Shown piece by piece: positions 12,926 through 33,540 of a stretch of 64,000 bases of DNA. The notes below the pieces were generated by a model. It searched no databases. It was not told where the DNA came from and saw only the letters and a list, made by a program, of their open reading frames with translations. The stretch's first letter is position 1. Every line of letters begins with the position of its first letter. Source of the stretch: Agrobacterium larrymoorei (GTDB lineage: Bacteria; Pseudomonadota; Alphaproteobacteria; Rhizobiales; Rhizobiaceae). The translations under genes were made by a program, and so were the position numbers. The stretch lies in assembly GCF_005145045.1 (NCBI RefSeq), contig NZ_CP039691.1:2740001-2804000 (forward strand). The letters run 5' to 3'.

Positions 12926-12972
12926 AATGGTGCCCGAACGCGGATTTGAACCACGGACACGCGGATTTTCAA
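12926..12972 (-). repeat. Left attachment repeat: displaced 3' end of tRNA-Phe
   Basis: The 47 bases match 33463-33509 at 45 positions and read, on the minus strand, as the tRNA-Phe 3' part from the anticodon loop to CCA. There is no 5' half here, so this is not a gene but the tail displaced by integration. The two differences, at 12939 and 12955, correspond to tRNA positions 65 and 49 and form a C-G pair in place of the G-C pair of the intact gene. Confidence 0.93.
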
Positions 12973-13000: not shown

Positions 13001-13023
13001 GTAAGCATTCGCCGAGGACCGCA
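13001..13023 (+). repeat. Left terminal inverted repeat of IS66 element 1
   Basis: Begins GTAAGC and ends GGACCGCA. It pairs imperfectly with 16102-16124 on the other strand (16 of 23). The host target copy GTTGGGCT lies immediately outside at 12993-13000. Confidence 0.88.
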
Positions 13024-13026
13024 GTG

Positions 13027-13611
13027 TCAGGTTTTTTTGCGCGATCTGCGCTTCCATTTCGCAGCCAGAGCCTCGACGTTTTTGCCGAGATTTCTTGCAT
13101 CGGCCTGGCTGGGGTCGTAGTCTGAACTTCCCCACCATTCGAGCAGTTCTTGATGTCGCTCATGGTTGACGTCGGCAATAGCCTCACGGAACTCTTCATA
13201 GCCCCAAGGGCCGCCAACATCCTCTGGCGGGCACCTTCCGACAGCCTCGAGAAGGAAAGGATCATCAAAGCCGGGGGTAGCCGGAAAGGTCTTTTCGATT
13301 TTCACTGTGTGCGTCCAGCCGTCACCGAAGTCATAGAGATACTTGAATGACTTCGCGCCGATATCTTCGATGGCGGCAAGAAGCGTTTCCTTGCGAGCAT
13401 CAATGGGGTCATCAAAGCCGCCATCAGGCACGCCGAATCCGATGTCACGGATCCTGAACTCATAGAGATGACTGTTGGTCCAGCCGAAAGCCTGCTGGAG
13501 AACATCATGAAGCCGGTCGAGCCGAATGCGGAACGGCACGACAACGCGCCGCATCACCAAGGGATCAACGTCATCGAGCGTGATCTTCAAGCGAACGAGA
13601 GGACCTGCCAT
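13027..13611 (-). CDS. Plasmid pRiA4b ORF-3-family protein (IS66 passenger)
   Basis: The 194-residue protein belongs to the pRiA4b ORF-3 family, recognised by VRLKITLDDVDPLVMRRVVVPF, LDRLHDVLQQAFGW, HLYEFRI, YLYDFGDGWTHTV and CPPEDVGGPWGYEEF. The molecular role of the family is unknown. An ATG at 13611 overlaps the tnpC stop (ATGA), so the gene is translationally coupled to the transposase and lies inside the inverted repeats. It is therefore a passenger of the insertion sequence and not a gene of the island. A longer frame to 13653 is rejected because it would run through the end of tnpC. Confidence 0.88.
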   Translation of the reverse strand: MAGPLVRLKITLDDVDPLVMRRVVVPFRIRLDRLHDVLQQAFGWTNSHLYEFRIRDIGFGVPDGGFDDPIDARKETLLAAIEDIGAKSFKYLYDFGDGWTHTVKIEKTFPATPGFDDPFLLEAVGRCPPEDVGGPWGYEEFREAIADVNHERHQELLEWWGSSDYDPSQADARNLGKNVEALAAKWKRRSRKKT

Positions 13612-15269
13612 CAGGCCGCCTGCTGCAGAGATTTTGTTGCGGGGTTCCGCCAATTCCAGGGAAGAAGTTCATCGATCAGGCTGGCAGGATGATCGGCGAT
13701 GCGGGCGAGAACATCTGCAAGCCAGGTCTGTGGATCAGTGCGGTTCATTTTCGCGGTGACGATCAGGCTGTACATGGCTGCCGCCCTTTGCCCTCCGCGG
13801 TCGGAACCGGCAAATAGCCAGGCTTTTCGTCCAAGGGCCACACCACGCAGAGATCGCTCCGCGCAATTGTTCGACAGGCAAATCCGGCCGTCGTCGAGGA
13901 AGCGGGTGAAGGATTCCCAGCGGTTCAGCATATAGTCAAATGCCTTTGCCAGGTCGTTGTCACGCGGCAACCTGGCGCGGTGGTCGCGTATCCATATTTC
14001 CATCTCGTCGATCAACGGCTTTGATAATTGCTGGCGGATCGCTTTTCTCTCATCGGCAGTGCGGCCATTGATCTGGCGTTCGATCTCGAACAGCGCGTCG
14101 ATCCGCTGCACCATGTTCAAGGCGATTGGTGAGATAACGGCGGCACTTTTACCCTGCCCTTTTCGGCGCGCATTGGCCTCCAGATCGGCTTGCGCAAAGA
14201 ATGGCCGCCTGGCATGCGCCCAACACGCCGCTTCATAAATCGGGCCCGGACTTCGATCAGGAAGATAGAGCTGGCCATAGCCGGTATAGGCGTCCGCCTG
14301 AAGGATACCGCTATAATTGGCCAGATGTGCCTGTGGATGTTCGCCGGCCCGGTCCCGGGAATAATAGAACATCACCGACGGTGGAGCCGTTCCGCCGAAC
14401 GGAGCATCGTCCCTGACATAGCTCCATATCCGGCCGGTTGCGGTCTTGCCGAGAGCTAGAACCGGCACGGTCGTGTCATCACCGTGGATCCGTTCAGACG
14501 CGAACGTATGGCTTTCAATCCGTCGCACCAGCGGGTCAAGGACCTGGCAGCACGCACCAATCGCGTCTGCTGCAGTCGACAGGCTGATCGGCACACCCTC
14601 CAAGGCAAAACGTTCGACCTGGCGATTGAGGGGAATATGCTGGCCGAACTTGTCGCAGAGCATCATCGCCAAAAGGCTTGGCCCCGCCCATCCTCTCGGG
14701 ATGACATGGAAGGGTGCAGGTGCCTGGCTGATCTTCTCGCAGTCACGGCAGGTGAACTTTTCCCGCACCGTCTGAATGACCTTCCAGCTCCGCGGTACGC
14801 TCTCCATCGTTTCGGTGATGTCTTCGCCGAGCTTGCGAAGCCGTTCACCGCCACAGCAACTGCAGGCAACCGGCCCTGGCACCACAACACGCTCACGCGG
14901 CAGATGTTCCGGGAATGGCTTCTTGACCGGCCGCTTGCGCGTAAAGCCGGTGACCGCAATCGCAGATGCTGCAGCAACGGCCATTTCGGCGGCAAGCTCA
15001 TCTTCGGTCGCCGTCGCTTCGGCGTCCTCCAGCATCAGCTCCATCTGCGCAATCAGCCGCGCCGTCCGTTCCGACTTCTGACCGCGAAGCTCCCGTTGCA
15101 GCTTTTCGATATAGACTTTCTGGCGAAGAATGATGGCCTGATCGTCGGCCTCCTTGGCCTTGGCAACAGCCAATTCGGCCAAAGCAGCAGCACGCTCCGC
15201 CCGCGCTGTCGCCAATTCTGCTTCAAGAGCAGCAGCATGATCGCGGTGATTTTCGAAGCCCGGTTCCAT
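13611..15269 (-). CDS. tnpC: IS66 transposase TnpC
   Basis: The 552-residue DDE transposase appears complete. An N-terminal coiled coil (about 1-90) is followed by a zinc-finger-like region (CSCCGGERLRKLGED and TCRDCEKISQ), then the catalytic domain with IHGDDTTVPVL and LQADAYTGYGQL supplying the aspartates, and the glutamate in the C-terminal NNCAERSLRGVALGRK. The C-terminal IS66 motif ALGRKAWLFAGSDRGGQRAA is intact. It lies downstream of tnpA and tnpB and upstream of the overlapping passenger gene. With intact ends and genes, the element may still be active. Confidence 0.95.
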   Translation of the reverse strand: MEPGFENHRDHAAALEAELATARAERAAALAELAVAKAKEADDQAIILRQKVYIEKLQRELRGQKSERTARLIAQMELMLEDAEATATEDELAAEMAVAAASAIAVTGFTRKRPVKKPFPEHLPRERVVVPGPVACSCCGGERLRKLGEDITETMESVPRSWKVIQTVREKFTCRDCEKISQAPAPFHVIPRGWAGPSLLAMMLCDKFGQHIPLNRQVERFALEGVPISLSTAADAIGACCQVLDPLVRRIESHTFASERIHGDDTTVPVLALGKTATGRIWSYVRDDAPFGGTAPPSVMFYYSRDRAGEHPQAHLANYSGILQADAYTGYGQLYLPDRSPGPIYEAACWAHARRPFFAQADLEANARRKGQGKSAAVISPIALNMVQRIDALFEIERQINGRTADERKAIRQQLSKPLIDEMEIWIRDHRARLPRDNDLAKAFDYMLNRWESFTRFLDDGRICLSNNCAERSLRGVALGRKAWLFAGSDRGGQRAAAMYSLIVTAKMNRTDPQTWLADVLARIADHPASLIDELLPWNWRNPATKSLQQAA

Positions 15270-15347
15270 GCTCGAAGTGAATCACAAAACCCCTGATTTG
15301 CACAGCTTTTCTTGATGGCAATGGCGGCAAATCCTCGCCAAAATTCG

Positions 15348-15695
15348 CTATCCAGCGCTCGTCGGACGCCATGTCTGCTGCGGGTTTCGCCAGTCAATTC
15401 CCTCAAGCAAGTAGGACATCTGGCCAGCCGTCAGCGCAATTGCTCCGCCCTCAGTCACCGGCCAAATAAAACGGCCACGCTCGAGCCGCTTTGCGTACAG
15501 CGAAAGCCCAATTCCGTCATGCCAAAGAGCCTTGATCAGCCGGCCGCTTTTACCGCGGAAAACAAAAACGTCCCCCTTGAACGGATCACGACCAAGACCT
15601 TCCTGCACGATCAGAGCAAGACCCTGCATTCCCTTGCGCATATCGCAATGGCCGCTCGCAATCCAAACCCGCACGCTCGAACTGATCGGGATCAT
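15348..15695 (-). CDS. tnpB: IS66 accessory protein TnpB
   Basis: The 115-residue protein has the TnpB signature VWIASGHCDMRKGMQGLALIV, followed by VFVFRGKSGRLIKALWHDGIGL and the ending LLEGIDWRNPQQTWRP. TnpB is required with TnpA and TnpC for IS66 transposition, but its biochemical role is unclear. Its start overlaps the tnpA stop by four bases; 78 bases separate it from tnpC. Confidence 0.95.
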   Translation of the reverse strand: MIPISSSVRVWIASGHCDMRKGMQGLALIVQEGLGRDPFKGDVFVFRGKSGRLIKALWHDGIGLSLYAKRLERGRFIWPVTEGGAIALTAGQMSYLLEGIDWRNPQQTWRPTSAG

Positions 15696-16033
15696 TTGAG
15701 CGCTCGCATCACTGCAGCGGCAAGATCACAAGGCACGCCGGAGGCAATCCTCACCTTGATACAGTTCGCAAAGTCCACAACTATGGTTGCCGCACCACCA
15801 TCGCCACCGCTAGAAACATCCAGAACTGTTGCCGGCACAAAAGCAGGCCCATCTTTCACAGTCAGCGCTTGGCGCCGCCACGTGTAGAGCAGCCCCGTCG
15901 AAACATCAAAACGACGCGCTACCTCCGAGACATTTGCCCCAGGAGCAAATGCTGCCTCCAGAATTTCCAGCCGTCGGTCCGGTGACCAACGACGACGCCG
16001 TTCTTGACCCGTCAGCAAAATGGCCTGTGCCAT
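15692..16033 (-). CDS. tnpA: IS66 protein TnpA (helix-turn-helix)
   Basis: The 113-residue protein starts with an IS3/IS66-type helix-turn-helix: RRRWSPDRRLEILEAAF, then GANVSEVARRFDVSTGLLYTWRRQ. The C-terminal half is variable, as usual. It is the first gene of the element, 91 bases from the right terminal repeat, and overlaps tnpB. Confidence 0.93.
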   Translation of the reverse strand: MAQAILLTGQERRRRWSPDRRLEILEAAFAPGANVSEVARRFDVSTGLLYTWRRQALTVKDGPAFVPATVLDVSSGGDGGAATIVVDFANCIKVRIASGVPCDLAAAVMRALK

Positions 16034-16101
16034 AGTTCCTCATTGCGCTCTTAAGTCCACTCTCAAGAGCGCAAAATCACGTTATCGCCAAAAACTCGCA
16101 A

Positions 16102-16124
16102 GGCGGTCCACGCCGGAGGGATAC
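16102..16124 (-). repeat. Right terminal inverted repeat of IS66 element 1
   Basis: On the minus strand it begins GTATCC and contains GGACCGC like the left end. The second copy of the 8-bp target duplication, GTTGGGCT, lies at 16125-16132. Confidence 0.88.
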
Positions 16125-16328: not shown

Positions 16329-16937
16329 CTATGAACAACTGTTGCCATTTGTTTGAAGCAAATAAAAGCAAGGGACGCTTACCGCTCCTCTTTCTGTCTT
16401 TTTTTCAGTGAACCATGCATAAGCTAAAAGTGCGAGCATCAATAAAATGATCACATAGACAATTCTCTTCGTCCAAACGAAATTAGCTTCGCCTTCTTTT
16501 ACACGCGTCCATTCAAATTTCAGGAGCTTTTGTGAAGAGTCGATGAATCCCTTTTCCAGCTCTCGTATTTTTTCAGGAGTTAAATTTGAATTGCTCTGAG
16601 AGATGGATTCAAACTCAGACATCGATTTTAGAAGTGCTTTTGCAGGCTCCTCAGATGGGTTCACACGAAGCGTAATTCCATGGCTCGCCTCATTGAGCAG
16701 TTTGTAATTTGCTAGCAACGCTGCATCATCAATTGCTCTGCCGGCTCTTGCTAGGCGTAGGGCGTCACATATTGCATTGATATTTACGAGATATGACACC
16801 ACACATTTTCTCAGTTCATCTATCCACGCCTGCCTAAACTCCGATACTTTTTGCTCTTTGCCAATAACAAGCCCTAACAGAGAAACTAAACCTGCTATCG
16901 CGGCAGCCCCGACGGCTCCTATACTGATTTCGTTCAT
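16329..16937 (-). CDS. Unknown protein with an N-terminal and a C-terminal membrane segment
   Basis: The 202-residue protein has a hydrophobic segment near residues 4-24 (SIGAVGAAAIAGLVSLLGLVI), then GKEQKVSEFRQAWIDELR, a long helical cytoplasmic-type domain, and a second membrane segment near 160-180 (RIVYVIILLMLALLAYAWF). I do not recognise a functional family, though the KEQKVSEFRQAWID stretch looks like a conserved block. ATG 16937 is preferred over an upstream ATG at 17015 because the first segment then starts close to the N-terminus. It is divergent from the gene at 17071 across 133 bases, which suggests shared control. A defence or membrane-effector role is possible but is speculation. 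Confidence 0.7.
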   Translation of the reverse strand: MNEISIGAVGAAAIAGLVSLLGLVIGKEQKVSEFRQAWIDELRKCVVSYLVNINAICDALRLARAGRAIDDAALLANYKLLNEASHGITLRVNPSEEPAKALLKSMSEFESISQSNSNLTPEKIRELEKGFIDSSQKLLKFEWTRVKEGEANFVWTKRIVYVIILLMLALLAYAWFTEKKTERGAVSVPCFYLLQTNGNSCS

Positions 16938-17070
16938 TCTATCTCGTTCTCTGTTTAGCTTTGCTACGGTTACATCTAGATAAGGAAAGGTTGAAATAAT
17001 AAGCGAAAGATGCAACGTACGGTGAACGGTAGCAAGGGTGCGATGGGCGTCGCAGGGGAATAGTTTTTAG

Positions 17071-18033
17071 ATGTCGGAGACTTTGACCTTTCATTTCGAG
17101 GGTGCGTTAGCAGATTCACACAGAATGAACTTCTATGAGTCTGCCCGCTTTCAATATGCCGCTGCGCGTCTCGTCGTTAAGTTGGCGCAATTTCGACAAC
17201 ACGGCAGATTCGTAAAGAGCATTACGAACAAATCCAATTTCAGCATACAACTGAAAAGTCAGTCTGAGGGTTCGTTCAATATTAATGTAGAGGACCCAGG
17301 TCAGTCTGAAGACGAGAATCCATTCATCAACATATCTTTGGCTGACCTTGTCGCTTATGTTAGTGAACGAGTAATCGAAAAAATCGATGAGCCAACGCTA
17401 TCCACAGTGTCAGCACCGTCCGATGGCCAACAACCAACAAGCTCGACATCCAAACTCAGTGTTCTTGTAGATGACGTGATTGCTGGGCGGGTGTCTGCTG
17501 ACAGCTTTTCGGATTCTACCCAAGAATTAGTCAAGCGCCGGATATCGGAATACCATCGAGAGCAAAGACTAGTAGAGAACGAGGCGGCTGTATCTTCGAT
17601 TAGCTCTAGTCAGAGCCAGAAACTGATTGCAATGTCCGCTCCGTTGATTAGTGAGATGGCGACAGCGTTGAGAACAAGTGCCGACACCTTAGAAATCAGG
17701 TCATCCGCTCACGAGGACACGCGCCCGGTACTGTTCCTAAATCGAAAAATGGCTTCGGAGATTGAAACTGCAATTGTTGACAAAACCCCGAACCTGATAC
17801 TTGGCGATATTACGCAGTTCAACAAAGACAATGGCTGGGGGAAAATTAAAATTGAGAATGGAGCTAAAACTCTAAACTTTAGTATCCCCTACGATATTCT
17901 CCCAACGGTGAAAAAAACGTTGATCGACAACATGAAACGCGATCTCGTTTACGTGCAGGTCTATTTCGTTAGAGATCGGGCTGGAGATATAAAGCGAATG
18001 ATAGTGGTTGGCATATCCAAAACACCAACGTAA
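17071..18033 (+). CDS. Conserved hypothetical protein of the island
   Basis: The 320-residue soluble protein begins LTFHFEGALADSHRMNFYESARFQYAAARL, a stretch that looks strongly conserved. A low-complexity serine/threonine-rich linker (about 110-130) follows, then a helical region and a beta-rich C-terminal domain (about 235-318). No catalytic motif is visible and I cannot name a function. AGGGGAA stands about ten bases before the ATG. It is divergent from the two-membrane-segment protein at 16329-16937 and lies just upstream of the integrase gene. Confidence 0.75.
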   Translation: MSETLTFHFEGALADSHRMNFYESARFQYAAARLVVKLAQFRQHGRFVKSITNKSNFSIQLKSQSEGSFNINVEDPGQSEDENPFINISLADLVAYVSERVIEKIDEPTLSTVSAPSDGQQPTSSTSKLSVLVDDVIAGRVSADSFSDSTQELVKRRISEYHREQRLVENEAAVSSISSSQSQKLIAMSAPLISEMATALRTSADTLEIRSSAHEDTRPVLFLNRKMASEIETAIVDKTPNLILGDITQFNKDNGWGKIKIENGAKTLNFSIPYDILPTVKKTLIDNMKRDLVYVQVYFVRDRAGDIKRMIVVGISKTPT

Positions 18034-18148
18034 TCAGCTAATCTAAACGCCATCGAGCTTGGGGAGACCATCAAATTGGCTCCGCTATATCTCTACGCGT
18101 CCCAAATCGCACCCTGACACGCGGACGTTGCAATCTTATTGTTGCGTC

Positions 18149-19303
18149 ATGAGAAAGAAACTTACACCAAAACTCCTCGACAATCTCCCTCCCGCCGAAG
18201 GCAAGCGGTACGAGGTCCGCGACGAATTGTTGTCCGGCCTTCATGTTCGCGTATCGAATGCCGGTGGAAAGGTCTGGTATCTGGCGACCCGCGTTGATGA
18301 GAAGCCGAAACGCATCAAGCTCGGCACGTATCCGGTTCTGTCTTTGAAGGATGCGCGTGAAAAGGCACAAACACTGCTGCGCGATATTCAACTGGGCACA
18401 TTCCAACAGCGCGAGGTTGAGCCAGCACCGCCAGTTTTGACGCTCGGTGGTATCATACCCCAGTTCATCACGCGACACGCCCAGCGGCACACCAAGGACT
18501 GGAAGGGTACTCAAAGCATTTTGATGCGCATGAGCGGCCTTCATGCAATACCAATCAACTCCATCAAGCGTGGGGATGTAACGCGTGAACTTGAACGCCT
18601 GATTAGCGACATCGGCGCAAAGGGAGGCAAAGGCACACGGGCGAACCGTGGATTGGCCGCGATCAAGAAACTTTATACGTGGTGCGTCGATCAGGGCATC
18701 GTAGAAATCTCGCCCGTGGTCGGCCTGAAGCCCCCTATCAAGGAGGAGTCGCGCGACCGTGTCCTGACAGATAACGAAATCATTGCCTATTGGAATGGAT
18801 GTGAAGCTGAAGGCTACCCCTTCGAGCAGTTCGGCAAACTTCTTTTGCTGACCGGCCAGCGCCGCAACGAAATCGCATCCATGCGCTGGTCGAAAATCGA
18901 CCTACAACGTGGAACTCTGACGCTCAAAGCTGAGCGTACGAAAAACGGCTCTGCGCATATCGTGCCTCTGTCCCGGCAGGCACTCGACATTCTGCGATCT
19001 ATTCCGCGCTTTCTTGGTTCCGAATACGTATTCACTTCGACAGGCAAGACGCCGATTTCAGGCTTTGGCCGCTTCAAGGATCGTCTGGACATCTTTGTCG
19101 GTCTAGAAGCTGAGAACTGGCGCTTTCATGATGTTCGCCGCACCGCTGCAACGAATATGGCAATCCTCAAGGTGCAACCGCACATCATCGAAGCTGTGTT
19201 GAACCATAAATCCGGGATAGTCTCCGGGGTCGCATCCATCTACAATCGCCACGCGTATTTCGATGAGAAGCAGGAGCGTTGCAAATATGGGCGGATCGCG
19301 TGA
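18149..19303 (+). CDS. int: P4-type tyrosine integrase
   Basis: The 384-residue integrase has the N-terminal DUF4102-type arm-binding domain (LTPKLLDNLPPAEGKRYEVRD, KRIKLGTYPVLSLKDAREKA), a core-binding domain (about 90-190), and a tyrosine recombinase domain. Catalytic residues are visible: R in LLLTGQRRNEIASMRW, H and R in HDVRRTAATNMA, and the nucleophilic Y in IYNRHAYF. ATG 18149 matches the usual family start; a longer frame from 18059 adds unrelated residues. It is the obvious recombinase for the tRNA-Phe repeats. It lies about 5 kb from the left repeat, partly because an IS66 element has been inserted between them. Confidence 0.95.
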   Translation: MRKKLTPKLLDNLPPAEGKRYEVRDELLSGLHVRVSNAGGKVWYLATRVDEKPKRIKLGTYPVLSLKDAREKAQTLLRDIQLGTFQQREVEPAPPVLTLGGIIPQFITRHAQRHTKDWKGTQSILMRMSGLHAIPINSIKRGDVTRELERLISDIGAKGGKGTRANRGLAAIKKLYTWCVDQGIVEISPVVGLKPPIKEESRDRVLTDNEIIAYWNGCEAEGYPFEQFGKLLLLTGQRRNEIASMRWSKIDLQRGTLTLKAERTKNGSAHIVPLSRQALDILRSIPRFLGSEYVFTSTGKTPISGFGRFKDRLDIFVGLEAENWRFHDVRRTAATNMAILKVQPHIIEAVLNHKSGIVSGVASIYNRHAYFDEKQERCKYGRIA

Positions 19304-20506: not shown

Positions 20507-20869
20507 ATGGCCCGCATGGAGATCATGTCCGGTACCGAGCGCAGACGGCGCTGGTCGGACGAGGCGAAGCTGAGGATACTGGCGGAAGCTGATGAGCCGG
20601 GTGCTCGCATTGGTGACGTGGCGCGCCGGCATGACGTTCATCCTGGCCAGATCCGCTTGTGGCGAAAGTCGTTCAACTATGTTGATCGACCGACGGTGTT
20701 CCTTCCAGTGGAAATCGTGGAGGAGTTTGGCGTAAGTCAGGCGTCTACGACGGCAACGAGGCTGGCGATCGTCGAGATCTTGCTTCGAAACGGTCGGAGT
20801 TTGAAGGTTCCTGTTGACGTTGAGTTGAAACTGCTTGGCCCGCTCGTCGCTTGCGTGGAGGCGGCATGA
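20507..20869 (+). CDS. tnpA: IS66 protein TnpA
   Basis: The 120-residue protein carries the helix-turn-helix RRRRWSDEAKLRILAEADEPGARIGDVARRHDVHPGQIRLWRK at its N-terminus, split here as RRWSDEAKLRILAE and DVARRHDVHPGQIRLWRK. It is the first gene of IS66 element 2 and overlaps tnpB by four bases. It is only distantly similar to the TnpA of element 1. Confidence 0.93.
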   Translation: MARMEIMSGTERRRRWSDEAKLRILAEADEPGARIGDVARRHDVHPGQIRLWRKSFNYVDRPTVFLPVEIVEEFGVSQASTTATRLAIVEILLRNGRSLKVPVDVELKLLGPLVACVEAA

Positions 20870-21213
20870 TCGGGCCGTCAGGGAATGTACAGGTTTATCT
20901 GGCCTGCGGAGTGACTGACATGCGTCGCGGTATCGACGGTTTGTCAGCGCTGGTCGAGGGGGTGATCAGACAAGCGCCTGGTTCTGGCGCGATCTTCGGG
21001 TTCCGCGGCAGGCGCGCGGACCGAATCAAGCTTTTATGGTGGGACGGCCAAGGCTTTTGCCTGTTTTACAAGGTTTTGGAACGCGGATACTTCCCATGGC
21101 CGGCGGCCAAAGATGGCGTTGTGCATCTGACGCAGGCTCAGTTGTCGATGCTCGTCGAGGGGATCGACTGGCGACGACCGACATGGACGTCAGCGCCTCA
21201 TCGCACGGGCTGA
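20866..21213 (+). CDS. tnpB: IS66 accessory protein TnpB
   Basis: The 115-residue protein has the TnpB signature VYLACGVTDMRRGIDGLSALV, then FGFRGRRADRIKLLWWDGQGF and the ending LVEGIDWRRP. ATG 20866 overlaps the tnpA stop (ATGA). The last residues after LVEGIDWRRP differ from the usual QRTWRP-type ending; a small frame change at the very end cannot be excluded. Confidence 0.93.
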   Translation: MIGPSGNVQVYLACGVTDMRRGIDGLSALVEGVIRQAPGSGAIFGFRGRRADRIKLLWWDGQGFCLFYKVLERGYFPWPAAKDGVVHLTQAQLSMLVEGIDWRRPTWTSAPHRTG

Positions 21214-21285
21214 AAGCGTTATTTTGCAAGGGTGTCAGGGGTAAAATGCTGGCGCTAAAGGGCCAAATCAGTTACATTTTTGGGT

Positions 21286-22851
21286 ATGGAAACAACGCCG
21301 CCACAGGGTCAGGACGAGCTATCTGCACTGCGTGCATTGGTTGCTGAACAGGCGGCGAAACTCGAGCGACAAGACGCGGAAGTTACCAAGCGCGATACCA
21401 TAATCGACATTTTGCGCGCGCAGTTGGAGTTGCTGCGCCATCGACAGCATGGGGCCTCGTCCGAGAAAATAGACCGCAAGATCGAACAATTCGAACTGAT
21501 GCTCGAGGAGATTGAAGCGTCCCGCGCCGAGGCTGAGGTTCGCTCTGGAAGGACACCACTGCCGGAGCTGGAAGATGCCTGCGAAAAGCCAAAACGCAGA
21601 CCTTTGCCGGATGGGCTGCCGACAGAAGAGCGGATCTATCCGGCGCCGTGCAATTGCCCGACCTGCGGCGGGACATCGTTCCTGAAAGCACCTGATAAGG
21701 TGGTCCAGGTCATGGAGCATGTGCCGGCATCCGTGAAGATTGTTCGCCATGTCGAAAAGCGCTTCGTTTGCAAGGACTGCGACACTTCGTTGTCTGGCAA
21801 GATGCCGACCCTGCCGATCGAGCGCGGCAAACCCGGTCCCGGATTGCTTGCCCATATCATGGTCGCCAAATTCGACGATCACATCCCACTTTACCGACTG
21901 TCGGAGATGTACGATCGGCTTGGGATCGATATCTCCCGTTCCGTGATGGCCGACTGGATGGGGCATGCATCGGCTTTGCTCGGCCCCCTGATTTTGCTGA
22001 TCAGAGCGCATATCGCGGCCGTCGATCGGATCCATACCGACGACACTCCGGTCGATGTTCTCGACCCTGGACGAGGAAAGACCAGGACCGGGAGGGTCTG
22101 GGTCTACGTCTTCGATGGGCGTGGCTATCAAGATCCCAGGCCCGGAGCGATCGCTTATTATTACAGCCCTGACCGCAAGGGGGTTCACCCAGCCGAACAT
22201 CTTTCCAACTTCAGTGGCGTGATGCACGCGGACGGCTATGCTGGCTACAACAAGCTGTACGGCAATCAGATCATAGAGGCTGCCTGCATGGCGCATGTAC
22301 GCCGCAAATTCCATGACGTGATCAAACTCAAGCCATCAACGATCGCGCAGGAAGCGCTGTCGCGCATTGGTGCTCTCTACGATATCGAGGATCGTATCCG
22401 TGGCATGTTGCCTGACGAGAGGCGGGATTTGCGCCAGCAGCATGCCAAACCCATCCTGGACGAGCTGAAAGAGTGGATTGAGGATGTCCAGACAACACTG
22501 CCACAGAAACAGAAGCTGGCGGAAGCGATGCGGTATGCGCTGTCACGATGGGCAGCATTGAGCGTCTATCTTGATGACGGCCGGGTTGAAATCGACAACA
22601 ACATAGCTGAGCGTGCCATGCGACCACTGGGAATTGGCCGAAAGAACTGGTTATTTGCGGGCTCCGACAAGGGTGGTGAGCGCATCGCAAATATCTTGAG
22701 CATCATCGAAACCGCAAAGCTTCATGGCCACAATCCGGAAGCCTATCTGACCGATGTGCTGGCCCGGATCCAGGATCATCCCAAAGACCGACTTGAAAAT
22801 CTGCTGCCTTGGAACTGGACGCCGGCAAACGCTCGGTGCGAGGCTGCCTGA
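21286..22851 (+). CDS. tnpC: IS66 transposase TnpC
   Basis: The 521-residue transposase is full length. A coiled coil (about 10-85) leads into the zinc-finger-like region (CNCPTCGGTSFL and FVCKDCDTSLSG), then the DDE core with IHTDDTPVDVL and MHADGYAGYNKL, and the glutamate in IDNNIAERAMRPLGIGRK. The C-terminal GRKNWLFAGSDKGGERIANI is intact. Its stop overlaps the start of the passenger gene (TGATG). ATG 21286 is preferred over a TTG two codons upstream. Confidence 0.95.
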   Translation: METTPPQGQDELSALRALVAEQAAKLERQDAEVTKRDTIIDILRAQLELLRHRQHGASSEKIDRKIEQFELMLEEIEASRAEAEVRSGRTPLPELEDACEKPKRRPLPDGLPTEERIYPAPCNCPTCGGTSFLKAPDKVVQVMEHVPASVKIVRHVEKRFVCKDCDTSLSGKMPTLPIERGKPGPGLLAHIMVAKFDDHIPLYRLSEMYDRLGIDISRSVMADWMGHASALLGPLILLIRAHIAAVDRIHTDDTPVDVLDPGRGKTRTGRVWVYVFDGRGYQDPRPGAIAYYYSPDRKGVHPAEHLSNFSGVMHADGYAGYNKLYGNQIIEAACMAHVRRKFHDVIKLKPSTIAQEALSRIGALYDIEDRIRGMLPDERRDLRQQHAKPILDELKEWIEDVQTTLPQKQKLAEAMRYALSRWAALSVYLDDGRVEIDNNIAERAMRPLGIGRKNWLFAGSDKGGERIANILSIIETAKLHGHNPEAYLTDVLARIQDHPKDRLENLLPWNWTPANARCEAA

Positions 22852-26171: not shown

Positions 26172-26441
26172 GTGACGAAATCCACCCACACACCCGAGTA
26201 TAGGCGTCTTGTCGAACTTCTCATAGAAACGCGGCGGGAGGCTAAACTGACGCAACAACAGCTTGCCAACCGTATCGGCAAGCCGCAGTCCTATGTGGCG
26301 AAAGTGGAAGGTGCTGAACGGCGTATCGACGTAATCGAATTCGCGAAGCTAGCCAAGGCCATGGACGAAAGCCCAACGGCGTTGCTCGATAGGCTGCTTG
26401 CCGCCATTGAAAAACTCGAAAGATCGCAAGATTTTCCCTGA
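26172..26441 (+). CDS. XRE-family helix-turn-helix regulator
   Basis: The 89-residue protein has a canonical Cro/C1-type helix-turn-helix: LIETRREAKLTQQQLANRIGKPQSYVAKVEGAERRIDVIEF. The C-terminal helix could dimerise. The start is GTG. It probably controls the divergent small membrane protein gene and its own gene through the palindrome at 26101-26117. Small regulators of this kind often control cargo of integrative elements. Confidence 0.9.
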   Translation: MTKSTHTPEYRRLVELLIETRREAKLTQQQLANRIGKPQSYVAKVEGAERRIDVIEFAKLAKAMDESPTALLDRLLAAIEKLERSQDFP

Positions 26442-26498: not shown

Positions 26499-26726
26499 AT
26501 GACAGACAAAGCACCTGAAATCATCACTCTGAAAGCTCTTTGCGCCGAACTGAAAATCCACCCAAAGGAGGCGCGGGAACGTCTTCGCGATGCTGTCCGC
26601 GATCAGAAAAAGTATCCGGAGTTAGCAAAGTCCCACAAACCTAAATCACCGTGGCAATGGGTTAAGGGGTCAGCAGGAGAGAAGGATGTGAGAGAACTGT
26701 TTGCTCAGACCCCACCTAATAAATAG
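26499..26726 (+). CDS. Small conserved-looking protein (75 residues)
   Basis: The protein contains LKALCAELKIHPKEARERLRDAVRD, a helix-turn-helix-like stretch, and SPWQWVKGSAGEKDVRELF. AAGGAGA stands a few bases before the ATG, a strong ribosome-binding site. It lies 57 bases after the XRE gene and may share its transcript. I cannot name a family with confidence; a nucleic-acid-binding role is plausible. Confidence 0.75.
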   Translation: MTDKAPEIITLKALCAELKIHPKEARERLRDAVRDQKKYPELAKSHKPKSPWQWVKGSAGEKDVRELFAQTPPNK

Positions 26727-26880: not shown

Positions 26881-28956
26881 TTGTTTCGCACCTTACCGAT
26901 TGAAGCCTTTAGCCAAATTGATATTCTGACGAGGCCGTATATTGGAAAATTGCCGCCAGTAGACAGCAGTTTGCCAAGTACAGGAAATGATGAAGCACGA
27001 ACCGCGCGTGATAACGTAAAAAATCTACTTTATTGCGAATTTGACCGAGGTTGGCCGATAGACGCTTTGTTTCGGCTCTTGAAGATTGCTGAAGCTGCGT
27101 TCTGCGCAAAGAAGCTTCATAGGGATCAACTTCAGATTTTGTGGGAGTTGTGGGAAACTCTTCGAGATAGCGAATACATCATAGAATTAGCAAAGACTGA
27201 GCAATGGTCGCAAGCATTCGATCAGATTCTCATTCACATGCAGGGAAGCAGTTTTCGCCGTGGAGTGCAAGTTTCTGACAGACAGAGATTCTTGGGTGAA
27301 GCCTTACTAAAGCTTGCACATAAAGGTTTCCCATTTCGAATTGATGGCAGAGGCGCCAGCCTGACTAAACGCTCTTACAAAGATGTTTGCAATCTAATCG
27401 AAAAGAAAATCAAGCGGGCTGGCGGAGAACATGCAGCTAACGCTCTGCTAGGCCTGATGAAAAAATCAGGGCGCATTGAGGATGGCACTCTTCTACATGC
27501 TCGGATGCCTACGACCCTGTACAGTAAAACGAGATCAGGCACACCATGGCATTATATTTACTCGCTGGCCCTGAAGCATGTGGCCTCACCAACCGCACGC
27601 AATCCTGAACCCGTGTTGGAGGCCATGGAATCGCTGGCGGTTGCGATGGCTGCGACATTAGATGTAGAGCCGCACTCATCTTATGAAAACTTGAGTCTAT
27701 CCCGAATGTCCTTTACAGGATTTATGTTTGAGACAGTAATCTATGATGAGTTGTTCGCCATCCCTCAGTGGCAACCGAAAATAAGTGAACCACTGTTAAC
27801 GCTTTGGATTGATTCATTAGAGGCGGAAGGTTGCGAGTTTCCGATTGCTAGTGCCGCAGATTGGAAACTCTTGGGAAAGCAGATTCTGAAATGCGCTTTG
27901 GAATACAGATTATCGATCGCAGATGAGCGGATATTGAAGGCAGCACAATCATCTAAGGAAGCTTCAAGAGCACTCCTTAAAGCTATCTCGTCACCTGCGT
28001 CCGGGGTCAATCAATCATACAAGACCCCCTCAGATACTCAGCATCGTTCGGCTACAAACTTTCCAATCTTACGTGCATCATACAATCGCCTCCTAATTCA
28101 GCCCCGGGCTGTTGTCGGCCGAGCTTTTGTGGAGTGCATCTACTCAGAAATGCGAAAAGCTCAGGTCCCCGATCTTGAAAATATTATGGGTCGAGCGTTG
28201 GAGCGTTTAGCTCTTAAAATTTTTGAGAGCGCAGGAATGCCGGTATCTGTTAGCGGCAAAAAATATCGGAATGCCATAAGGGACGAGATATTAGAAGCTG
28301 ATCTAGTTTTCGAAACTGGTGAGAAAATTTTTTTAGTCGAGTGCACAAAGAAGCCTCTAACTAACCGCGCACGGAGCGGACATACGCTAGATGGGCTTCG
28401 GGACTTTAGCGGCAGTTTCCTGAAATTACTTCAACAACTCGCTCAGCATGAGGCACACCTTCGAAAAGTAGGAATGATCGAATTTGAAGACGGCCAAGTG
28501 GTCCGTTTAGGGGGACGTTCCGTGGAGAAGGTAGCGTTAAACCTTTTCGATCATGGATCACTACAGAACCGCGATATGACGATGAGTTTTATTGAGGCTT
28601 TGTCCAATACTTACATGACTTCGAGCGTGCCTGAAGCACAAAAAATCCTTACAGATGTCAATAAAAGACTTAAATTCATCAACCAGGCGCTCAACGAAAT
28701 TGTGTCCTCATATGCGCCAGCAAACGAACGTGGTCTTTTTGATTTTGCTATGTCTACGTGGTGGCTAAGCGTCGACCAGTTGCATTATCTTGCGTTTAAA
28801 GAAGGTAATCTGTGGAAGACGATGGAGCGTATCAGGCACATGACTGCCAGAAGCGGTGACATATTTTATGAAGTTAATCGAGTAATGAACATAAACGAAG
28901 TCGGAAAATCGATTTTCGATGTGTGCAAAAAGATGAATAGCCGGGGCGTTTTATAA
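26881..28956 (+). CDS. Large unknown protein with a PD-(D/E)xK-like nuclease motif (island cargo)
   Basis: The 691-residue soluble protein is not recognised as a named family. About 450 mostly helical residues precede a candidate restriction-endonuclease-like fold: a helix with ENIMGRALERLALKIFES, then D474 in EADLVFETGEKIFLVECTKK with E487 and K490. The spacing D-x12-E fits the PD-(D/E)xK pattern, but the lysine is one place further than the usual ExK, so activity is uncertain. The TTG start at 26881 has no strong ribosome-binding site. The gene is AT-richer than the chromosome, has no membrane segments, and is followed after 292 bases by the large ATPase-nuclease gene in the same direction. 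A defence function is inferred from domain and context only. Confidence 0.75.
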   Translation: MFRTLPIEAFSQIDILTRPYIGKLPPVDSSLPSTGNDEARTARDNVKNLLYCEFDRGWPIDALFRLLKIAEAAFCAKKLHRDQLQILWELWETLRDSEYIIELAKTEQWSQAFDQILIHMQGSSFRRGVQVSDRQRFLGEALLKLAHKGFPFRIDGRGASLTKRSYKDVCNLIEKKIKRAGGEHAANALLGLMKKSGRIEDGTLLHARMPTTLYSKTRSGTPWHYIYSLALKHVASPTARNPEPVLEAMESLAVAMAATLDVEPHSSYENLSLSRMSFTGFMFETVIYDELFAIPQWQPKISEPLLTLWIDSLEAEGCEFPIASAADWKLLGKQILKCALEYRLSIADERILKAAQSSKEASRALLKAISSPASGVNQSYKTPSDTQHRSATNFPILRASYNRLLIQPRAVVGRAFVECIYSEMRKAQVPDLENIMGRALERLALKIFESAGMPVSVSGKKYRNAIRDEILEADLVFETGEKIFLVECTKKPLTNRARSGHTLDGLRDFSGSFLKLLQQLAQHEAHLRKVGMIEFEDGQVVRLGGRSVEKVALNLFDHGSLQNRDMTMSFIEALSNTYMTSSVPEAQKILTDVNKRLKFINQALNEIVSSYAPANERGLFDFAMSTWWLSVDQLHYLAFKEGNLWKTMERIRHMTARSGDIFYEVNRVMNINEVGKSIFDVCKKMNSRGVL

Positions 28957-29248
28957 CGTGCTGAAAATCACGCCGTATTTTGAGGCGGCTCTCGATAACG
29001 AACCTATTCTACTCTTATAACATATTTGTGCTGCGAAGGCGTGGAATATCAAGCACGGGCAAAGAAGCACGCCGCACGAACTGTGGCTGTGCGTCAAGGC
29101 ATCGTCATGTCGGCGAAAGCGAGGGAGTTGCTTTCAAATAAGTAACTTAAAAGTTGTGGGCATTGGAATGCAACAGGGTGCCAACCCGACCCTAAGCGTA
29201 TACTAAAGTTATTTAAGAGGGTCATTAAACACAGCGATCACCGACAAA

Positions 29249-32200
29249 ATGACGTACATAGAGCGCCTTGTTCAGATCGGAGATAAGCTGGAAAGCGGTC
29301 AGCTTTTGCAGAATGGCGATAGAGTCACCATTCTGCTCGCTGAACCCGGCGCAGGTAAAACTGAACTCATGAAGTCGCTTGCCGCGCATTTTGGCGTACA
29401 ACGTATTCGCGCCAGTCAGTTCCGGCACAAAACCAAATTCGAAGATAATACTGTTCTAATAATCGACGGTGTTGATGAGGTCGCCAAGATCGACCAGTCC
29501 GCTGTTGACCAGTTGATTATCAAGGCGGAAGAACTGAACCCTGATAGAGTATTTTTTGCCAGTAGGTCAGCGCAGTGGGAAAACGCACGGACGATGGCTG
29601 TTAAGCAAGTTTTCGGCGTCGAGCCGCGAATAGCGTATTTGAAGCCCCTAAACCAAGATGAACAGCTCAAACTATTCGAAACCTACAAACCGGATCATAG
29701 CTACGAGAAATTCAAAGATGGCTTAGCCAGTCTGGATATTGGCCCTTTGCTCGGCAACCCTCAAATGCTGAAGATATTCGCAGACGCCTACACGCAGAAT
29801 GGTGGAAATTTCGGAACAAAGCGCAAGGTATTTGCAGACGCTATCAATCAGCTTGCGAGTGAAAATAATGAGGAAATCATTAAAGCGGATAGGACGCCCA
29901 CTCCACAGCTGGTAGCACATGCGGAAGAACTATTTTCCAAACTGCTTTTGAGCGGTGCGTCCGGTATCAGTTTGACGGAACGAAACGCCGACCGTGACTT
30001 CCCATCTGTTTCAGCATTATTGGGCACAGGTAGAAGTGGCTATGAAGCCGCGCATACCGGATTGTTCAAGCCAGCTGACTCAGAGGATCAGCATGAGCCA
30101 ATTCACCGCATCATCGCCGAACATGCTGCTGCACGGTATCTAACGCGACGCATTGAAGCCCCATCAGATCGGCTTTCACTTAAGCGCCTAATGTCGGTGA
30201 TCGCACCCAACGATGTAGCGCGTGATGAACTTCGTGGACTGCTGGCATGGATGGCCACAGAAGGCGGAGTTTCGGTCGAACGTGCCGTGATCGACATTGA
30301 TCCATACGCCATCATCTCAAACGGTGACCCATCTTTCCTTTCGGCGTCATCTAAGTCCTACCTGCTTAAAAAGCTTGCTGAGGTGGCCGAAATCAATCCC
30401 CATTTCAGGGGATCTGACGTGTGGCGCGAGTTCAGCGCGAACGGCTTCTTTACCGAAGATGTTGTTGCTGACGTCGAAAAAATTCTGGAGGAAACGCCGA
30501 CATCTGACGGATTAAGTTCTTTGTTGTTGGAACTTCTGAGAGGAACAACTGCGGCAGAGAAGTTAACCGATCTTTTGACGACGCTTTTGCTCGATAGAAG
30601 CCAGGATATATACCAGCGCACACGCGCACTGCGCGTGCTTTCGGAAAATTCGAATTTTGAAACCGTTAGGACGTTTGAAGCTCTGCTAGCGGAAGAATCG
30701 CATCAAGCAGTGGAACTTGCCTCTGAACTTTTCGAGGCTAGTTATACAAATCACCTTTCTTTGAATGATGGACATCGATTATTTTATTCAATTGCAGAAA
30801 ACTGCTTTCAGACCGATCCCGACACATATGATGAAGAAACGTCCCGATATTTCCTCATATCACTCATCAGTATATTTGATGCGGGGGCATTGATTTCGCT
30901 AATTGATACTTTAAGCGATGGCCTGACATGCGACTGCGATAAAAATGAGCTTCATAATTGTTATTGCCGTTACGGTCGAAGCTATTTGATCGGAAAGTTG
31001 TTGGACCGCCTATTCGAAATTGGCGTGCAGGAACCAAACGCGGAACAGCTTTGGCGTTGGCTTCAAAATGTTCGATATAGATATGGACGCTCCGGGAGCG
31101 ATAGCCGGGCGGTTTTGGAGTTGCAGGCCAATGACGAACTTCGTCAAGCCGTACATCGGCTTGCTTTCCAAGAACTGGATGACCGAGATTTAATATTTGA
31201 TCTAAAATTCAGTATGTTCTCCGGTCCCGGTCACTCAGGCCTCTCATTTAAAAAGGCTGACCTTGAGGCGCTTACTGACTTTGCCTTCGAACATGACAAC
31301 GATCTTCTTTGGTCGTATTTCATTGAACACCATCGCCGGTACGAGAAGGTAAATTTCCAAAATACTTATCGCGCCCATATGCGGAAACAGGCGTTGGAAA
31401 AACCGGCCTTCTTAAGACAATGGACGCTAGCGCACAGGGCAATGAATGAGCACTCCGCTCAATCAAAACCGTGCTTATTGCGGCGGTCCGCGATGATACG
31501 TAAGCGAGATCGGAGACAAGATGAAATCCGTAGAAAAGATCAGGAACATTTTGACGAAAACCGCGCTCAGATCGAATCAGGACGCCATTGGGGATGGCTC
31601 AAAGAAATAGGGCGAAATTACCTATTCGGCAAAATAGATCGCTTGCCCGAAATGGGTGACGACGAGTTTCATATCCGAGCACTCTGCAACAGCTTTGATT
31701 TCTTAAAGCCGGACATCCCTCCGTTGGAAAAAATAGCCATCGAACGTGGCACTTTCAAAATAGTTACTGTTGCTTATGCTGCATGCCTTGCACACTATCG
31801 CAAGAATGGAACACTACGCGGGATTGACCGATCAATCCTTCAGGCAGTTAGAACGGACGCTGACGTATCTTATAGCGGTGGTAATAAAGACGATATCCCG
31901 GCCTTCCGTAATGAGCTAGAGAGAGAAATCTGGGCCACCGCCGATGACGCTGAAAACTTCGCCCGCCGCTACGTCGAACCTCAGATTGCCAGCACTGAGC
32001 TAGAGCACTCCAAAATCTATTGGATTCTGCACAAACCGCAATTCGAGCCTATACGTGATAAGCTATGTTTAGAGTGGATTCAGCGCTACCCGCATATGCA
32101 TCTGAACACGATGAAAAGCCTATTCGACTTCGTCTCGATCAGCTGTGATAACAGTTGGCTCGAAACGTATGTTGATGAACGTCTCGCTGATCTCGATAAC

Positions 32201-33262
32201 GCAAGCGGCACCGACAAGCAGAGCGAACGCTGGACAATTGCCCATGACTTCTGGCGTCTTCGAAAATTCTTTATCTGTGAAATGCCTGATGAAGCCACCC
32301 TCAATTGGCTATCAGAGAGTAAAGAAAGACTTTTGGCGTTGGAAACCGTCGCAAGTCGGTTAAATCGCGATGAGCATTCTGGTTGGAAGGAACTCTCGGC
32401 AAAAAAGGTTGAGATCATTTTAACCACGTTCATTGATCTGTGGCCCAAGGTTCACCTTCCAAACCACTGGGGCACCGGCGATCCTCCAGAGCAAACGGCC
32501 TATCGATTCCTAACGGACATCGTGTGGGCTATCGGTCGTGATAAGCCGATGCATTCAATCCCTGTGCTCAACAACCTTCTTGCTGATACGCGCTTTGCCG
32601 ATTTCACAATCTCCCTGAAGGCAACCAAGGCAAGTGCGTTGAAAAAGCAAGCGTTAGAGGGTTTCGAACCTCCCACGCCGGAAGATGTCACACAAATGCT
32701 CGACAATCAGAAGATTGCTTCTGTTGAGGATATGAGAGCGTTACTGATAGAAATATTTGAAGAAATTCAAGACTGGTTGAATGGTTCAGAAACTGATCCG
32801 GTGAATCTGTTCTACGACAAACAGAGTGATGGCACGTTCATCCGAAAGGATGAAAACGGCACGACAAAAATCATTGCTGACCGCCTCAAGCAGCGCTGCG
32901 AAACGTTGGGCTTGAACGTGGCCATTGAGCTGCATCAACGCGACAGCAATCGCACGGATATCGGCATTCTCTGCAATATTGCCGGGCAAAACGCTTTGCT
33001 GGTAATCGAAGCGAAAGGGCAATGGCACAGAGAACTCTACACAGCAGCAGCAGAGCAATTGGACGCACGCTATTCAATTCATCCAAGCGCTGCCCGACAG
33101 GGTATCTATCTGGTTTACTGGTTTGGAGCTGAGACCGACGTTGCAGGCGTAAAAAAGCATGACATTAAGTCTGCAAGGGAGCTTCGACAGAAGCTTCTGG
33201 ACAATATGCCTAGCGAGTTGAAGGCTCGAATCAATGTCGTTGTTATCGACTTGGCCCGATAA
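29249..33262 (+). CDS. NACHT-like ATPase with C-terminal PD-(D/E)xK-like nuclease domain (island cargo)
   Basis: The 1337-residue protein starts with a STAND/NACHT-like P-loop ATPase: Walker A AEPGAGKTEL (residues 31-40) and Walker B VLIIDGVDEV (69-78), with DGVDE of the NACHT type. A winged-helix-like part and a long helical region follow. At 561-573 there is a possible zinc site, CxC-x7-CxC (C561, C563, C571, C573). The last 120 residues look like a PD-(D/E)xK nuclease: D1237 in RTDIGILC, and E1254 and K1256 in LLVIEAKGQW. Bacterial NACHT proteins with nuclease domains are known antiphage sensors, usually with the effector at the N-terminus; here the order is reversed. The ATG at 29249 lacks a strong ribosome-binding site. 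Function is inferred. Confidence 0.8.
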   Translation: MTYIERLVQIGDKLESGQLLQNGDRVTILLAEPGAGKTELMKSLAAHFGVQRIRASQFRHKTKFEDNTVLIIDGVDEVAKIDQSAVDQLIIKAEELNPDRVFFASRSAQWENARTMAVKQVFGVEPRIAYLKPLNQDEQLKLFETYKPDHSYEKFKDGLASLDIGPLLGNPQMLKIFADAYTQNGGNFGTKRKVFADAINQLASENNEEIIKADRTPTPQLVAHAEELFSKLLLSGASGISLTERNADRDFPSVSALLGTGRSGYEAAHTGLFKPADSEDQHEPIHRIIAEHAAARYLTRRIEAPSDRLSLKRLMSVIAPNDVARDELRGLLAWMATEGGVSVERAVIDIDPYAIISNGDPSFLSASSKSYLLKKLAEVAEINPHFRGSDVWREFSANGFFTEDVVADVEKILEETPTSDGLSSLLLELLRGTTAAEKLTDLLTTLLLDRSQDIYQRTRALRVLSENSNFETVRTFEALLAEESHQAVELASELFEASYTNHLSLNDGHRLFYSIAENCFQTDPDTYDEETSRYFLISLISIFDAGALISLIDTLSDGLTCDCDKNELHNCYCRYGRSYLIGKLLDRLFEIGVQEPNAEQLWRWLQNVRYRYGRSGSDSRAVLELQANDELRQAVHRLAFQELDDRDLIFDLKFSMFSGPGHSGLSFKKADLEALTDFAFEHDNDLLWSYFIEHHRRYEKVNFQNTYRAHMRKQALEKPAFLRQWTLAHRAMNEHSAQSKPCLLRRSAMIRKRDRRQDEIRRKDQEHFDENRAQIESGRHWGWLKEIGRNYLFGKIDRLPEMGDDEFHIRALCNSFDFLKPDIPPLEKIAIERGTFKIVTVAYAACLAHYRKNGTLRGIDRSILQAVRTDADVSYSGGNKDDIPAFRNELEREIWATADDAENFARRYVEPQIASTELEHSKIYWILHKPQFEPIRDKLCLEWIQRYPHMHLNTMKSLFDFVSISCDNSWLETYVDERLADLDNASGTDKQSERWTIAHDFWRLRKFFICEMPDEATLNWLSESKERLLALETVASRLNRDEHSGWKELSAKKVEIILTTFIDLWPKVHLPNHWGTGDPPEQTAYRFLTDIVWAIGRDKPMHSIPVLNNLLADTRFADFTISLKATKASALKKQALEGFEPPTPEDVTQMLDNQKIASVEDMRALLIEIFEEIQDWLNGSETDPVNLFYDKQSDGTFIRKDENGTTKIIADRLKQRCETLGLNVAIELHQRDSNRTDIGILCNIAGQNALLVIEAKGQWHRELYTAAAEQLDARYSIHPSAARQGIYLVYWFGAETDVAGVKKHDIKSARELRQKLLDNMPSELKARINVVVIDLAR

Positions 33263-33462: not shown

Positions 33463-33509
33463 AATGGTGCCCGAAGGCGGATTTGAACCACCGACACGCG
33501 GATTTTCAA
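33463..33509 (-). repeat. Right attachment repeat within tRNA-Phe
   Basis: Direct repeat of 12926-12972 with 45 of 47 matches. It covers the 3' half of the intact tRNA gene from the anticodon loop to CCA plus two bases. Both mismatches lie in the T-stem, so crossover took place beyond them, in the anticodon arm, and the 3' half of the present tRNA gene came with the element. Confidence 0.93.
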
Positions 33510-33540
33510 TCCGCTGCTCTACCAACTGAGCTATTCGGGC
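33465..33540 (-). tRNA. tRNA-Phe (anticodon GAA)
   Basis: The 76-base gene reads GCCCGAATAGCTCAGTTGG and so on from 33540. It folds into a 7-bp acceptor stem (GCCCGAA with TTCGGGC), a D-arm GCTC/GAGC, an anticodon stem GCGGA/TCCGC with loop TTGAAAA giving GAA, a T-stem GGTGG/CCGCC with loop TTCAAAT, and an encoded CCA. It is the target of the integrative element, which restored a functional 3' end. Confidence 0.98.

Follow-up and report, generated by a model that had tools for sequence, protein, structure and literature searches.

In a 64,000-nucleotide stretch of Agrobacterium larrymoorei (assembly GCF_005145045.1, contig NZ_CP039691.1, positions 2,740,001 to 2,804,000; hereafter the window), we examined two adjacent genes carried by an island, most probably an acquired element inserted at a tRNA gene. 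Our preferred reading, with a probability of about 0.68, is that gene 2 encodes a full-length EruA NACHT ATPase whose predicted C-terminal nuclease likely cuts DNA on a phage trigger, and that gene 1 encodes a separate predicted nuclease which likely acts alone. An earlier note had described the pair as two large open reading frames (ORFs) on one strand, and both were found on the forward strand (Table 1). Neither is a chance ORF, because 13 proteins matched gene 1 and 312 matched gene 2 at E ≤ 1e-3 (the window's own copy included in each count).

Gene 2 as a full-length EruA

By its sequence, gene 2 adds a new, full-length member to a family that already has a name. It scored 1184.1 bits, against a cut-off of 1000, with NCBIfam model NF058535 ('NACHT domain-containing antiphage protein EruA'), the match spanning residues 23–1335 of the protein and positions 23–1317 of the 1318 in the model. 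The earlier note had assigned neither gene to a named system, which still holds for gene 1 and no longer for gene 2, and the defence role proposed there for gene 2 agrees with the curated antiphage family. Of the profile sets compared, NCBIfam gave this match; PADLOC (2023), like Pfam and PHROGs, gave weak matches only. Short P-loop matches of gene 2 were below threshold and were dropped.

The gene-2 alignment comprised 57 rows (the window, 47 of the 120 listed proteins and nine genome loci). D1237, E1254 and K1256, which mark the separate nuclease-like domain seen by the earlier note, are kept in all of them (57/57). The NACHT-like ATPase was likewise confirmed: Walker A (GxGK) and Walker B (DxxDE) were each found in 56/56 rows that include them. 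The window row was cut before the Walker motifs in this alignment; the window protein itself holds both.

Among the matches listed, gene 2 branches with Agrobacterium and Pseudovibrio proteins (76–87% identical), and it is 36–38% identical to members from Vibrio and Pseudomonas. EruA matches above the cut-off were present in 3 of 385 genomes of the class and in 5 of 299 genomes of the phylum, the own genome included each time; those matches under the cut-off that were short P-loop or partial ones were not taken as EruA loci. One phage record matched gene 2, covering 22% at 28.7% identity, and a search of viral contigs with strict patterns detected no homologue of either gene. The literature matches listed for Eru, EruA and HyoA contained no title on the antiphage protein; the protein called 'EruA' in PMC12839154 is another one, a regulator of the SlyA type from Escherichia coli.

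EruA architecture and comparison with known systems

EruA is predicted to combine an NLR-type HD1-WHD-HD2 region with a long helical solenoid and then a nuclease, according to a structure model that covers residues 138–1337 only. An H-x4-E-x3-A motif lies in the HD1-WHD-HD2 region (H286, E291, A295) and is invariant; we take it to resemble the corresponding NLR motif. EruA has the NACHT/STAND NTPase and, in the model, the HD1-WHD-HD2 that are canonical for bNACHT and NLR proteins. It lacks the canonical effector N-terminal to NACHT: Walker A starts at about residue 31, and the nuclease lies at the C-terminus.

The sister family HyoA (NF058534) shows the same order: the four members that were aligned (L070–L073) have their ATPase at the N-terminus and a D...ExK motif at the C-terminus. 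Its proteins are 1436–1452 amino acids long, and the stretch preceding their EruA-like part is longer. HyoA, to which these four more distant relatives belong, cross-matches the EruA model; NF058534 was not among the NCBIfam matches of gene 2 itself. Clade 6 of the bNACHT proteins (bNACHT25, bNACHT32) also joins a NACHT module and a PD-(D/E)XK DNase in one chain (PMC12169576), with the nuclease at the N-terminus and the sensor at the C-terminus, whereas EruA starts with the NACHT and ends with the nuclease. With animal NLRs (NLRP3, NLRC4, NOD2), EruA shares the predicted HD1-WHD-HD2-like fold; in contrast to them, no leucine-rich repeats were identified in EruA, which has the solenoid and the nuclease instead.

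The trigger, assembly and substrate of EruA can be proposed by analogy with NLR and bNACHT precedents. The solenoid would bind a phage protein or a change in the host caused by infection, and several EruA copies would, on exchange of ADP for ATP, assemble by way of their NACHT parts. Their C-terminal nucleases, thereby brought together, would cut the DNA of both cell and phage, so that the infected cell would stop supporting the phage (abortive infection).

Gene 1 as a predicted nuclease

The nuclease-like motif noted earlier in gene 1 proved invariant: D474 and E487, as well as E441 and Y462, were each kept in 20/20 members of the alignment. Position 489, where a lysine two residues after the glutamate is expected, holds K in 11 of the 20 and T in nine; the T489 rows are the window and its eight nearest rows, and all nine have K490 and K491. 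The structure model of gene 1 (predicted local distance difference test score 83.5) contains an alpha-beta-beta-beta-alpha-beta core whose strands carry D474 and E487. In gene 1 we identified no CARF domain. PADLOC gave weak Csx1/CARF matches, and sub-threshold matches to GlpB and CARF were dropped.

A second protein search for gene 1 with a wider alignment (A2) added no further members, and a search of genome contigs gave four loci. Two of the 385 class genomes carry a relative (the own genome and G235), as does the own genome alone among the 61 genomes of the species' surroundings. In a search over 15 genomes, 13 gave short or partial matches only, and the two short ones that were scanned were YraN. 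No homologue was detected in phage records. Many of the relatives are plasmid-borne and some have other defence genes nearby, and no constant partner was found across the compared loci. In Rhizobium jaguaris (L003, 3863–9863), a gene-1 relative lies 97 base pairs (bp) after a Dsr1-like SIR2 gene on the same strand.

Foldseek with the gene-1 model returned nothing at E ≤ 0.001. Its best match was Upx (PDB 9wuf), which reaches beyond the nuclease domain, with a root mean square deviation of 9.8 over 331 residues and a chain of 1212 residues against the 691 of gene 1. When the nuclease part of the model was taken alone, restriction nucleases and Can2 scored as high as Upx; Can2/Card1 aligns within model residues 298–653. 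Profile A2 had a single match among PDB sequences at E ≤ 10, a UPF0102 protein, and none to Upx. YraN/UPF0102, like Can2/Card1, has the PD-(D/E)xK core in common with gene 1, whose profile reaches YraN proteins, but the two YraN proteins scanned (143 and 158 amino acids) lack the long N-terminal part of gene 1. Two longer matches of the profile had a sub-threshold NERD match.

Neighbourhoods and alternative readings

We compared the flanks (6–8 kb where the contig allowed) of 21 EruA-type loci (L001, L002, L054–L068, L081, L083, L110, L112) and 16 gene-1 loci (L003–L005, L037–L040, L069, L074–L080, L111). Six of the former were over the NF058535 cut-off (L054, L055, L057–L060), nine under it and six not scored with that model; contig ends cut L056, L062, L064 and L066. 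L113 (partial), L082 (broken pieces) and the HyoA loci L070–L073 were excluded from the 21. Among the gene-1 loci, L039 and L040 represent two halves found in a single genome, and one flank is short in each of L038 and L079. The A. rosae loci stand outside both counts, as do the 13 genomes with short or partial gene-1 matches.

We detected no gene-1 relative in the flanks of the 21 EruA-type loci (0/21) and no EruA in those of the 16 gene-1 loci (0/16). Nor did any other EruA partner recur in more than two of 18 loci compared over four genes on each side (window included), where only two homologous neighbour pairs were found, each common to two loci. Both a gene-1 relative and an EruA above the cut-off occurred in the own genome only, among the 385 class genomes; in G235 the gene-1 relative and a HyoA lie on different contigs. 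Since gene-1 relatives and EruA were never neighbours in the checked loci, the two are likely separate defences. The earlier note, which supposed that they act together, had itself named homologues that are never neighbours as the outcome that would speak against this; such was the case in all loci examined, and joint action is therefore unsupported.

Some observations at the locus weigh against separate genes. Genes 1 and 2 lie on one strand, 292 bp apart, and their G+C is similarly low (0.457 and 0.483, compared with 0.587 to the right of the tRNA); besides, A. rosae, the closest carrier of both, has close relatives of each. These would fit a true two-gene system in which the local EruA lineage gained a partner, for instance with EruA activating gene 1 as an additional nuclease. 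We judge this improbable, given the neighbour counts and the single genome that holds both, and given that EruA has a conserved nuclease of its own. Separate genes are thus favoured over one system, although this is not proven. It is similarly improbable that EruA targets plasmids or other mobile DNA instead of phages: relatives themselves lie on conjugative plasmids, but the curated family name says antiphage.

Other alternatives concern gene 1 itself, which under the preferred reading would be a one-gene, stand-alone nuclease defence. A catalytically inactive gene 1 in the window clade, acting only by binding, is suggested by T489 in place of the lysine, but E441, D474 and E487 are intact throughout and two lysines directly follow in every T489 row, and we give this little credence. 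Gene 1 could also be a real novelty, a stand-alone nuclease defence whose single chain holds both sensor and nuclease and whose build distantly resembles the C-terminal half of Upx. The reach of the Upx match beyond the nuclease domain brings this to mind; the poor superposition, the equal scores of other nucleases and the UPF0102 hit in place of Upx make it doubtful. A broader proposal, which we advance tentatively and at less than even odds, is that gene 1 stands at the head of a one-gene immune family that has no name as yet. It would be a self-contained sensor-nuclease, built like a halved Upx and found on plasmids and tRNA islands near other defences; its window branch would have the catalytic lysine shifted by one residue (ExTK instead of ExK), and here it sits beside the 'inverted' NLR EruA.

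The island and its flanks

A repeat copy of part of the tRNA-Phe gene together with a tyrosine integrase supports the tRNA-inserted element that the earlier note had described. A RepB-type primase gene and then an AAA_25 gene lie downstream of the integrase, and none of the ten island ORFs scanned matched a phage structural family at E 0.001. To the right of the tRNA, bases match at least partially in 39/39 genomes of the genus (own included), compared with 3/39 to the left of the far repeat (own plus two short stretches of 190 and 36 bases); the left neighbourhood of the element is therefore variable too.

Table 1. Features of the two genes and of the island, in window positions.
Feature	Position	Strand	Remarks
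Gene 2, EruA, NACHT-domain antiphage protein	29249..33262	+	1337 aa, ATG; NF058535
EruA Walker A (about 31-40) to Walker B DGVDE (73-77)	29339..29479	+	
EruA predicted NLR-like HD1-WHD-HD2, about residues 138-420	29660..30508	+	model
EruA predicted helical solenoid, about residues 421-1197, candidate sensor	30509..32839	+	model
EruA C-terminal PD-(D/E)xK nuclease, about 1202-1291 (D1237, E1254, K1256)	32852..33121	+	
Gene 1, unnamed, predicted PD-(D/E)xK nuclease domain	26881..28956	+	691 aa, TTG start
Gene 1 predicted nuclease domain, residues 432-562 (D474, E487, T489 K490 K491)	28174..28566	+	
Distal att-like repeat of tRNA-Phe 3' part	12926..12972	+	47 bp, 2 mismatches
Tyrosine integrase of element	18059..19303	+	PF00589 + PF13356
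Small helix-turn-helix (HTH) regulator upstream of gene 1	26172..26441	+	HTH_3
Proximal att-like repeat over tRNA-Phe 3' part	33463..33509	+	
tRNA-Phe (gaa), insertion site	33465..33540	-	

An IS66-type insertion at 13001–16124 has a 100% identical counterpart on a plasmid of Agrobacterium larrymoorei, and ORFs at 20507–22851 are, by eye, presumably IS66-like. Near the integrase, a divergent pair (16329–18033) consists of a 228-amino-acid ORF with no Pfam match and a 320-amino-acid ORF with a sub-threshold match to DUF7946. Between the HTH gene and gene 1 lies a 75-amino-acid ORF with no Pfam match (26499–26726), possibly a regulator or small partner. The gap between genes 1 and 2 (28957–29248) contains a short open stretch that runs to a stop, perhaps what is left of the 3' end of a lost gene.

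Implications

What pairs gene 1 with EruA is most likely just their shared address, and the locus illustrates that two adjacent cargo genes of an island need not form one system. Gene 1 stands as a compact, unnamed candidate defence nuclease. In EruA and HyoA an NLR-type switch precedes the nuclease, opposite to the bacterial NACHT order that PMC12169576 describes; this reversed order therefore offers a test of whether NLR assembly switches on an effector from either end.
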